64,000 bases of DNA from Azoarcus sp. (GTDB lineage Bacteria; Pseudomonadota; Gammaproteobacteria; Burkholderiales; Rhodocyclaceae): the NCBI GenBank assembly GCA_030656215.1, contig JAUSOD010000091.1, positions 1 to 64,000 on the forward strand, read 5' to 3'. Within the stretch, counting starts at the first letter, position 1. Each line of letters starts with the position of its first letter. The translations under genes were made by a program, and so were the position numbers. The notes under the pieces were generated by a model. That model did no database searches, was not told the origin of the DNA, and saw only the letters and a program-made list of their open reading frames with translations. This document shows positions 35,827 to 50,526 of this stretch, in pieces.

Positions 35827-37317
35827 ATGAGAGACAACTGCACGACCCGGTTCCCTGATGACTTGCAGCGCCAAGCCGAGGCAGTCATTGCTGATCGACC
35901 ATTGCCAGGGGGAACTAGCATCGAGACCGACCACCTGAAGCTGCTCCATGAGTTACAGGTTCACAAAACCGAACTCAAGTTGCAGAACGACGAGCTGCGC
36001 CGGGCGCAGGTGGAGCTTGAAGCCTCGTGGAGCCACCTTTTCGAGCTCTACGATCTGGCACCAGTCGGTTACTGCACGCTGAGCACGGCAGGGCTCATCC
36101 TGCAGGCCAATCTCACGGCGTCCACCTTGTTCGGCGTAGCTCTGCAAGATGTGGTCAACCAGCCCTTTTATCACTTCATCCTTATGGAAGACCGCGACAT
36201 CTTCCATCTTCATATCCAGGCGCTCATCTTGACCGGGGAACGGCAAACCTGCGACCTGCGCATGGTAAGGAATGACGGGACTGTGATTTGGCTCAAGCTG
36301 TGCTCGGTCAGTGCGCATGATGCCGACCACCGGCGATTGTGCAACACGACGATCAGTGACATCACCGAGAGCAAGCAGCTGGAAAAGGCCTTGCGCGAGC
36401 AGAAGGAGTTCTTTCTTCAGATCGCGGAAAACCTTTCCGACTTTGTCGCGGTGCTCGACCTCGAGGGGCGCCGCATCTACAACAGCCCCTCATACCAGCA
36501 CTTTTTCGGTGCCACCGAAGACCTGCGCAATACCGACTCCTTCGCCGACATCCATCCGGATGACCGGGAGCGGGTTAAACAGATTTTCCGCGAAACCGTG
36601 CAAACCGGCCAGGGACACCATATCGAATATCGCTTCCTGATGAACGACGGCAGTGTCCGTGACATGGAGTCGCGCGGCAGCGTAATCAAGGACAGCGACG
36701 GACGGGTGGAACGGGTAGTGGTCGTTTCCCGCGATATCACCGAGCACAAGCAGCTTCAGGCCCAGGTGCGCCACATGGCATTCCACGACGCCCTGACCGG
36801 CCTGCCAAACCGGCGCCTGTTCAGCGACCGTCTGGGCCAGGCCATGGCGGCGAGCACCCGCAGCGCCTGTTATGGCGCGCTGATGTTTCTCGACCTGGAC
36901 AACTTCAAATCACTCAACGACGCCCATGGTCACGAAATCGGTGACCTGTTGCTGATGGAGGCGGCAGATCGGCTCAAGCGTTGTGTGCGCGAGATGGATA
37001 CCGTGGCACGCCTGGGTGGGGACGAGTTTGTGGTGATGCTCAGCCAGCTCGATACGGACAAGGCCGAATCGATCGCACAGGCCGGAACCGTCGCCGAAAA
37101 GCTGCGTGTTGCCTTGGCGGAACCCTACCTGTTGCCCACAACGAATGCCTCAAACGCCGAGACCACGGTCGAGCATCAATGCTCGGCGAGCATCGGCGTG
37201 ACCCTGTTCCATGATCATGAAACGAGCCAGAGCGACATCCTGAAGCGTGCCGATTCGGCGATGTATCAGGCCAAGCAGGGAGGGCGTGATCAGATTCGGC
37301 TTTGTGACCTGGAATAG
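35827..37317 (+). CDS. PAS/PAC sensor diguanylate cyclase (GGDEF), paralog of 3-1454
   Basis: LLHELQVHKTELKLQNDELRRAQVELEAS...RLGGDEFVVMLSQL; REMD I-site; nearly collinear with first gene. Confidence 0.92.
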   Translation: MRDNCTTRFPDDLQRQAEAVIADRPLPGGTSIETDHLKLLHELQVHKTELKLQNDELRRAQVELEASWSHLFELYDLAPVGYCTLSTAGLILQANLTASTLFGVALQDVVNQPFYHFILMEDRDIFHLHIQALILTGERQTCDLRMVRNDGTVIWLKLCSVSAHDADHRRLCNTTISDITESKQLEKALREQKEFFLQIAENLSDFVAVLDLEGRRIYNSPSYQHFFGATEDLRNTDSFADIHPDDRERVKQIFRETVQTGQGHHIEYRFLMNDGSVRDMESRGSVIKDSDGRVERVVVVSRDITEHKQLQAQVRHMAFHDALTGLPNRRLFSDRLGQAMAASTRSACYGALMFLDLDNFKSLNDAHGHEIGDLLLMEAADRLKRCVREMDTVARLGGDEFVVMLSQLDTDKAESIAQAGTVAEKLRVALAEPYLLPTTNASNAETTVEHQCSASIGVTLFHDHETSQSDILKRADSAMYQAKQGGRDQIRLCDLE

Positions 37318-38753: not shown

Positions 38754-38805
38754 CAGCCTTGTACGTCAGCCTTGTAGCTCAGCCTTGTAGCTCAGCCTTG
38801 TACCC
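38754..38805. repeat. Four-copy 13-bp tandem repeat
   Basis: CAGCCTTGTACGT / CAGCCTTGTAGCT / CAGCCTTGTAGCT / CAGCCTTGTACCC; overlaps stop of the minus-strand Wzz-like gene. Confidence 0.9.
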
Positions 38806-40846
38806 GCCCCGTCAGGCCCGGCATCAAGGGGGCGACCTGGGCCAGCGTGCGGCGCTTGCCTGCGGGCGAGAGGCCGGCATACTGGGCGAGCACATCGGCA
38901 GGCAGGGTGCCGACGATGTGCTCGAGTTCGCTGAAGCGCAGTCCCTGCCGGACCAGATAGGCAATACAGGTATGGCGCAAGGTCTGCGGGGTAATCTCCG
39001 CCGGATCGTCGAGTCCTGCGTCATGGGCGGCGCAAAGCAGCCTGCGTTTGCACTCTTCATCCGCATCGGGCATGGCGATACCCGCCGCGCCCGGCCCCTC
39101 CGGTTTCGCACTTTCCGCCGCAAGTCGGGCAAACATGGAGACAGGCACGGTAAGGGTACGGGCGCTCGGACCGTGCAGCCGGATGGCACCGGACGCGGTG
39201 TCGAGATCCGGCGCGGCAATACGCCGGATTTCATCCGGCGTGGCGCCACACAGGAGCAGCCCGGCCCAGTTGCGGTCGTCCTCATGCATGGCCTGGAGTA
39301 ATTCGGCCACCTCGGCTTGCTCGAGTTCGCGCGCCGCGCTCAATGCCGCCGGCAGTTGCGCCGGGGCGGCGGCGAACCGGGGAAGACGCCCCTGCGCCTC
39401 TCGCCCTTCCAGCACCAGAGGCAGGTCGTGCCCCATGGCGATCGGCAGGATCACCGGTGCAGTGGACTGCACGGGCGGACGATTGAACACTTCGACCACG
39501 CCGATCCCCATCAGCCCGAGCGCGAACGCCATGCCAAGGCTGATCCCGGCGTCGAGCGTGTAATGCGGCCGCCACACCTCGCTCGGGGCGGTCGCGGGCT
39601 CGATGACCTGCACCGACGGCATGCGCGATTTCTCGCTGGTTTCGGTACGCAGCAGACGTTCGGATAGTCCACGCCGCCCCGACTCCATCTGCGCCAGCTC
39701 CTCCTGCATGGATTTGAATGCGCTGAAGCGTCTGGAAAACGCATGCACCGCCCCCCGATCCTCGGCGAGCTGCTTCTGCAACCGGTCCTGCACCTGCCGG
39801 GCCGACGCCAGTTCGTCCTCGGCCTCCGCCAGCGCGGTCTGCCCCATGGTGCCGCGCTGTTCGACGATCTGTTTTTCGAGCTCCGCCAGACGGGAGCGGG
39901 CGCCGCGCGTGGCCGGATCCATGTCCATGAACTGCACCGTGTAGGTGCGCTCCTGCTCGCGCAATGACTCACGCAATTGCGAAGCACGCGATTCGAGCGC
40001 TGCCAGCGTGGGATTGTCACGCGCGCGCACCACCGCCTTTCCCGCGGCAAGTGATGCCCGCAGGGAACGGACCCGGCCCTCGGCCTCGGCGACCTTCTCG
40101 TTGGCCTGGTTCAGCGATACGGACAATCCCTTTACGCGGGCGAGAATCTGGTTCTCGTCACGTTCGATCGAGACAATGTCGGCAGACTGACGGTAGTCCT
40201 CCAGCGCCTCGCGCTTTTCGGCGAGGCGCTGGTCGAGGCTGACCAGCTCCTGGCGCAGGGAGTCGATCGCGGTGGTCGCCGTCCTGTTGTAGCCGTCGAT
40301 GAGCTGTCGCGAATAAACATCGATCAGCACATTGACGATCACGGCAAGATGCTCCGGGCTCAGCCCGGTTGCCGTCAGGGCGATGTAACTGGTTTCGGCC
40401 ACGGGCTCGGCCACCAGCGCAGCCTGGATGCCCTGTACCGGATCCGGACCAAACTCCGACAGGTCGACGCCCTGTTGGCGCAGCGCAGGCAGCGCAGCCT
40501 CGATCAGCGGGCGACTCGACAACACCCCGGCTTCGGCCTGCAGGCTGGCGCCGTTGCCTGGCCCGGGCGTGGTCGTGACCGTCGCCGACCCGGGTTCGGC
40601 CACCACCGGCAGGGAGCGGACAACCGCGCCGGTCTTGACCGCGATCGTGGCCTGCGCACGGTATTCGGCGGGACGAGAGTAGGTGTAGGCCAGACCGATC
40701 GCCAGACTGGCAAGAAACACAAGCAGAAACACCTGCAGACGTCGGCGATTGCCCCGCGCCGCACGCTCGTCCGCGGCATCCGATTCAAGTTGTCGATTAG
40801 CGTTAATCAAGGTTTCGAAGCCAAGCATGGCAAAAATCCTCGACAC
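38792..40846 (-). CDS. Wzz/GumC-type chain-length-determinant-like protein with C-terminal degenerate tyrosine-recombinase-like domain
   Basis: TM1 LQVFLLVFLASLAIGLAYTYS, PAEYRAQATIAV, long coiled coil, TM2 GISLGMAFALGLMGIGVVEVF; C-terminus ELEQAEVAELLQAM...LLLCGATPDEIRRIAAPDLDTASGAIRL...ITPQTLRHTCIAYLVRQG. Confidence 0.8.
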   Translation of the reverse strand: MSRIFAMLGFETLINANRQLESDAADERAARGNRRRLQVFLLVFLASLAIGLAYTYSRPAEYRAQATIAVKTGAVVRSLPVVAEPGSATVTTTPGPGNGASLQAEAGVLSSRPLIEAALPALRQQGVDLSEFGPDPVQGIQAALVAEPVAETSYIALTATGLSPEHLAVIVNVLIDVYSRQLIDGYNRTATTAIDSLRQELVSLDQRLAEKREALEDYRQSADIVSIERDENQILARVKGLSVSLNQANEKVAEAEGRVRSLRASLAAGKAVVRARDNPTLAALESRASQLRESLREQERTYTVQFMDMDPATRGARSRLAELEKQIVEQRGTMGQTALAEAEDELASARQVQDRLQKQLAEDRGAVHAFSRRFSAFKSMQEELAQMESGRRGLSERLLRTETSEKSRMPSVQVIEPATAPSEVWRPHYTLDAGISLGMAFALGLMGIGVVEVFNRPPVQSTAPVILPIAMGHDLPLVLEGREAQGRLPRFAAAPAQLPAALSAARELEQAEVAELLQAMHEDDRNWAGLLLCGATPDEIRRIAAPDLDTASGAIRLHGPSARTLTVPVSMFARLAAESAKPEGPGAAGIAMPDADEECKRRLLCAAHDAGLDDPAEITPQTLRHTCIAYLVRQGLRFSELEHIVGTLPADVLAQYAGLSPAGKRRTLAQVAPLMPGLTGRVQG

Positions 40847-50449: not shown

Positions 50450-50526
50450 TGGTCGGGGAAAGAGGATTCGAACCTCCGGCCCCTGCGTCCCGAACGCAGT
50501 GCTCTACCAGGCTGAGCTATTCCCCG
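50450..50526 (-). tRNA. tRNA-Pro (CGG anticodon), encoded CCA
   Basis: CGGGGAATAGCTCAGCCTGGTAGAGCACTGCGTTCGGGACGCAGGGGCCGGAGGTTCGAATCCTCTTTCCCCGACCA; cloverleaf pairs, loop TTCGGGA. Confidence 0.96.

Follow-up and report, generated by a model that had tools for sequence, protein, structure and literature searches.

A polysaccharide co-polymerase carrying a degenerate tyrosine-recombinase domain in an Azoarcus genome and its relatives

Polysaccharide co-polymerases of the Wzz type are recognised by two transmembrane (TM) helices that flank a periplasmic region made up of a Wzz core and long helices. In Wzc this part is fused to a BY-kinase, the globular cytoplasmic domain behind TM2, and the Wzc octamer is held together by insertion of each subunit's tyrosine (Tyr) tail into its neighbour's active site (PMC8285477). 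The kinase-less co-polymerases EpsF (TIGR03017) and the XrtA chain-length determinant (TIGR03007) share the two TM helices, the Wzz core and the long helices, and are mostly encoded in polysaccharide operons. Tyrosine recombinases, with the catalytic set R-K-H-R-H/W-Y, also have relatives with a lost active site. MrpR (YopR) of prophage SP-beta is a dead tyrosine recombinase that acts as a DNA-binding repressor and keeps the N-terminal core-binding domain (PMC10516654), and TnsF of Tn6022-like transposons is a dead tyrosine recombinase that serves as target selector, with a core-binding domain and zinc fingers (PMC10293859).

Here we describe a gene that joins these two protein classes in a window of 64,000 nucleotides (the whole stretch of Azoarcus sp. 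DNA that was analysed). Its translation is a 684-aa reading frame without internal stop, and the features located in it are listed in Table 1. With an in-frame ATG as start the product has 678 aa; this ATG has a better ribosome site than the GTG of the longest frame and may be the true start. Two homologues display long N-terminal ORF extensions (L082 8999-11860, 954 aa; L042 187-2658, 824 aa), which may reflect start codon choice or a true extension. A literature search limited to open-licence papers found no description of the fusion, a weak sign of novelty.

Table 1. Location of the fusion gene and of its features in the window
Feature	Position	Strand	Remarks
Whole gene: polysaccharide co-polymerase + degenerate tyrosine-recombinase catalytic domain	38792..40846	-	684 aa from GTG
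Alternative in-frame ATG, codon 7	40826..40828	-	AGGA-like ribosome-binding site upstream; putative, from sequence
TM1, ~residues 37-57 (end of helix 16-57)	40676..40738	-	hydrophobic stretch; helix in AlphaFold model
Wzz (PF02706) match, periplasmic start, residues 35-119	40490..40744	-	E=3.5e-4, just below gathering score
Long periplasmic helices, residues 164-407	39626..40357	-	full AlphaFold model; Foldseek
TM2, residues 429-455	39482..39562	-	sequence and AlphaFold model
Disordered cytoplasmic linker, residues 461-506, ~45 aa	39329..39466	-	pLDDT <50 at 461-500; evolves faster
Degenerate tyrosine-recombinase catalytic domain, residues 507-683	38798..39328	-	Pfam, tail HMM, AlphaFold, Foldseek
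Thr536 at catalytic Arg-I position	39239..39241	-	Arg in 0/47 homologues
Arg624 = Arg-II	38975..38977	-	kept in 44/47
Fusion-specific motif RQGLRFSEL, residues 633-641	38924..38950	-	consensus RQGxR[FL][SA][DE]L
Tyr656 at nucleophile position	38879..38881	-	kept in 43/47

The order of TM1, periplasmic core, long helices, TM2 and disordered linker in the full AlphaFold model agrees with the co-polymerase layout (TM, Wzz-like start, coiled coil, second TM) that a sequence-only reading had assigned to this frame. The best PDB fold matches of the full model in Foldseek are Wzc, KpsE and WzzE, with Wzc also the best PDB match of the full protein by sequence. Homologues of two further genomes (G839 of family f106 and G875 of f142) exceed the PF02706 gathering score. 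For the N-terminal 460 aa, the best NCBIfam matches were TIGR03007 (54.2 bits; curated cut-off 278.85) and TIGR03017 (47.5 bits; curated cut-off 422.75). EpsF and the XrtA chain-length determinant are both encoded in the same genome, where the true TIGR03007 member scores 646.8 and the true EpsF, on contig C40, 543.9; in contrast to the fusion, these two co-polymerases lack a recombinase tail. Judged by its modelled fold, the N-terminal part is a polysaccharide co-polymerase, but of a separate subfamily. On the window's own contig, two Wzz-type matches, both partial and lying in adjacent ORFs (C55:235210-236437), are possibly two tandem co-polymerase genes or one disrupted gene.

The topology of the fusion is that of Wzc, and the tail takes the place where a BY-kinase often sits, as had been noted earlier; in Wzc, however, the cytoplasmic domain is a kinase, whereas that of the fusion has a recombinase fold. 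A Walker A motif was found in none of the 47 fusion proteins compared, and most of them have no Tyr within the last 25 residues and thus no C-terminal Tyr cluster. The idea that the tail is a kinase, or a strict replacement of one, was rejected for want of a Walker A motif and a Tyr-rich tail.

Searched alone against Pfam Phage_integrase (PF00589), the tail reached E=4.3e-5 and narrowly missed the gathering score, which the tails of two homologues exceed (L005, 1.3e-7; L007, 1.7e-8). With an HMM built from the 47 tails, recombinases encoded in this genome were matched at 3e-10, 6e-10 and 2e-6; the tail by itself, searched by sequence against the PDB, gave nothing but chance matches. The AlphaFold model calculated from the tail alignment has a pLDDT of 92.1 and a pTM of 0.89, and its best 50 PDB fold matches in Foldseek are all tyrosine recombinases or degenerate relatives, among them XerA (5hxy; E=1.1e-5, probability 1.00), P2/HP1 integrases, IntI, XerD, XerH, Cre, lambda integrase, MrpR/YopR and SroF. 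HMM and predicted structure agree that the tail is a tyrosine-recombinase catalytic fold, which bears out the likeness to such a domain first read from the letters; the AlphaFold and Foldseek comparison returned the recombinase fold and not a fold dissimilar to it. The fold, the order of its elements and the positions of Arg-II and Tyr are the same as in the catalytic domains of XerA, XerC, XerD and the phage P2/HP1 integrases. Unlike these proteins, the tail has lost Arg-I and both histidines, is acidic and membrane-tethered, and has no core-binding domain: in the AlphaFold model its catalytic half is preceded by TM2 and the disordered linker.

The residue assignments of the earlier reading held. 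In addition to the exchange of Arg-I for Thr536, Gln621 replaces the His of HxxR and Thr647 that of LGH, while H625 directly after R624 and Tyr656 at recombinase spacing are retained. Every member of the family has lost catalytic residues: among the 47 tails, Arg-I and the HxxR His are each present in 0/47 and the LGH His in 1/47, and the beta-hairpin Lys is not conserved, so that the recombinase set is not found in any tail. A new motif that none of the four recombinases used for comparison contains is strongly conserved (R633 in 40/47, Q634 and G635 in 46/47 each, R637 in 44/47, L641 in 47/47), and the C-terminal end of the tail, with P676 and L678, is conserved too. Loss of the old catalytic site together with gain of a new motif is what is expected of a changed function. 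Retention of Arg-II and Tyr is by itself not required by a pure protein-binding role; the two residues may be structural.

The charge of the tail bears on the main rival explanation, a membrane-anchored DNA-binding domain through which polysaccharide assembly would be tied to the control of genes or to the chromosome, in the manner of MrpR/YopR and TnsF. DNA-binding proteins with a dead recombinase fold are known from these two examples (PMC10516654, PMC10293859), MrpR/YopR and SroF are among the best 50 fold matches of the tail, and Arg-II, His625 and Tyr are kept. Like the tail, MrpR and TnsF combine a recombinase fold with a lost active site; both, however, bind or target DNA and retain the core-binding half, whereas the tail is the catalytic half alone, placed behind a linker on a membrane co-polymerase. 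Computed from sequence, net charge averages -6.7 and pI 5.1 over the 47 tails, of which 46 are negative, in contrast to the basic recombinases of the genome: the tail HMM matches three complete recombinase domains there, with net charges of +1, +9 and +4 and pI values of 8.1, 10.1 and 10.1. Moreover, three of the phosphate-contacting positions are gone in essentially all members. Charge and missing clamp disfavour the DNA-binding explanation, which we regard as unlikely, and make ordinary DNA binding by the tail appear improbable.

The distribution of the fusion was analysed by profile searches of whole genomes sampled from the family, order and class (Gammaproteobacteria), which performed far better than a peptide-pattern scan of genome contigs that had detected one relative only. 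The full-length fusion is present in 37/399 genomes of the same family, spread over ten genera, in two further families of the order and in three further families of the class. This makes 49 carrier genomes from six families, from which 47 different sequences were extracted, and the search for the same fusion in relatives that the sequence-only reading had proposed was thereby successful. In the co-polymerase tree, the fusions cluster largely by family, which fits an old fusion inherited mostly by descent; the placement of f218 beside or inside f16 makes transfer possible there. When 270 genomes of the order were searched for the tail domain, all 8/8 strong matches (E <1e-55) were the fusion, and none was an unfused tail domain. 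The next match (4e-15) was an intact recombinase, in which GLR, HTLRH and LGH are all present. Plasmid and viral contig collections contained no match to the fusion gene, and its carriage on mobile elements was discarded as an explanation on this basis.

These data also speak to a reading of the protein as a co-polymerase whose tail is a passive leftover of gene fusion, devoid of a function of its own. Lost catalysis and a rapidly evolving linker speak for this reading; the tail itself, however, is under purifying selection (dN/dS 0.08-0.46 in 16 close pairs), is present in 47/47 homologues of six families, and carries near-invariant residues and a lineage-specific motif. A passive tail is accordingly quite doubtful. 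The view of the recombinase fold as co-opted is backed by the conserved new motif and by the acidity of the tail, while its functional sense stays a matter of interpretation.

In the window, the gene is flanked by an AI-2E family transporter gene and a TRAP DctPQM set, as reported earlier, with the exopolysaccharide loci on other contigs, and the genome has no second close copy of it. When the insertion site was compared within the genus, the AI-2E neighbour was not conserved, so that no empty site could be demonstrated. The idea of a sigma-54 promoter, taken from the PEP-CTERM literature, was dropped, as the upstream matches did not exceed those of shuffled sequence or of the reverse strand. 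Exopolysaccharide synthesis is frequently under cyclic-di-GMP control. A PAS-PAS-GGDEF diguanylate cyclase is encoded on the opposite strand two genes from the fusion (window 35827-37317); this link is not conserved among the neighbourhoods read. The sole tRNA gene of the window is a tRNA-Pro (CGG) at 50450-50526.

Most carrier genomes have no recurrent polysaccharide gene near the fusion. Its earlier description as an orphan applies to the window and to most relatives, but not to family f6 and one relative of family f16, where the gene stands among polysaccharide genes. In f6 (L097, L098), genes for an SLT/Sel1 protein, ManC, a Wzy_C family protein and VanZ lie upstream, and those for a UDP-sugar dehydrogenase, an epimerase and an aminotransferase downstream; in f16 (L093), a Wzx-type flippase gene follows the fusion. 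In both families, VanZ-like membrane proteins are encoded repeatedly close to the fusion (L097 3370-4746, L093 427-3711, L096 17025-19355). A polysaccharide export protein and a Wzz-type match elsewhere in the genome were each detected in 19/19 carriers examined; in G1031 and G1096 the Wzz-type match stays under the Pfam cut-off.

A link to the XrtA exopolysaccharide system is indicated by co-occurrence. Within the same family, XrtA exceeded the cut-off in 32/37 carriers and 155/362 non-carriers (Fisher p=3e-7, a value inflated by shared ancestry), and outside the family in 11/12 carriers, giving 43/49 carriers overall; five carriers without an XrtA match are all fragmented drafts. The genome studied here has a complete XrtA locus on another contig (C52:84001-104000, L134), comprising an export protein, TIGR03007, a separate kinase (TIGR03018), TIGR03016, TIGR03015, a deacetylase and XrtA. 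Because this locus has its own co-polymerase and kinase, the fusion is not needed for basic function.

The same neighbourhoods were informative for a further alternative, in which the tail interferes with true recombinases, for example by using the C-terminal exchange surface to bind XerC/XerD or FtsK, and so either links envelope polysaccharide with segregation of the chromosome or prevents recombination at the membrane. Xer proteins are among the closest solved folds, including a structure of XerD in complex with FtsK gamma; recombinase subunits exchange C-terminal helices, and the C-terminal end of the tail is conserved. Against this, no recurrent xer, ftsK or mobile-element link appeared in the neighbourhoods read and the plasmid and viral collections held no match, which leaves the proposal with little probability. 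The kept Tyr and Arg-II would fit a recombinase that stays active through a rearranged catalytic site, but recombination by a membrane-tethered protein that has no core-binding domain and lacks Arg-I and the HxxR His in 47/47 members and the LGH His in all but one appears very unlikely. That two genes were joined by an assembly error or a frameshift, the failure that the sequence-only reading had itself considered, is ruled out for practical purposes by the identical join in 47 different, independent homologues from six families, by tail dN/dS values below 0.5 and by the absence of an unfused copy from the 270 genomes.

Our preferred explanation, which we hold with about even confidence, is that the protein is an accessory chain-length co-polymerase in which a dead recombinase fold takes the kinase's place as a cytoplasmic interaction or oligomerisation module, likely working with the XrtA system. 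The protein would be an extra, stand-alone co-polymerase of the Wzz/EpsF/Wzc type in the inner membrane, probably oligomerising through its periplasmic part, and would help to set the length or the export of an exopolysaccharide, most likely together with the XrtA/PEP-CTERM system. A role in polysaccharide assembly is supported indirectly by the fold, by the neighbours in two families and by the co-occurrence with XrtA. The recombinase fold would have lost DNA cleavage in the family's ancestor, and the tail may now be a protein-protein module that docks a cytoplasmic partner or stabilises the ring; that it binds protein is our inference. In that position, the one occupied by the kinase in Wzc, it may have a regulatory role. 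Recombinases exchange C-terminal helices cyclically from subunit to subunit, and because they do so, a dead recombinase could provide a ring contact like that of Wzc without its chemistry. The narrower proposal, that a recombinase catalytic half with neither active site nor DNA clamp, instead of a kinase, is the ring-forming or partner-docking domain controlling exopolysaccharide assembly, is put forward more tentatively.

The recombinases and dead recombinases compared here (XerC/D, integrases, MrpR, TnsF) all act on DNA. If the preferred explanation is true, a conserved, acidic, membrane-tethered recombinase fold without DNA clamp would mean that the fold is open to recruitment as a protein module, and the co-polymerases responsible for exopolysaccharide length would gain a new kind of cytoplasmic control domain. 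The fusion also offers a handle on the accessory, orphan co-polymerases of XrtA/PEP-CTERM bacteria, and the 49 carrier genomes in the family, order and class samples are enough for genetics in a culturable member. Because a recombinase domain without its active site has been kept in many bacteria, our findings suggest that a polysaccharide machine has taken over a DNA-cutting fold as a control element in the cytoplasm.
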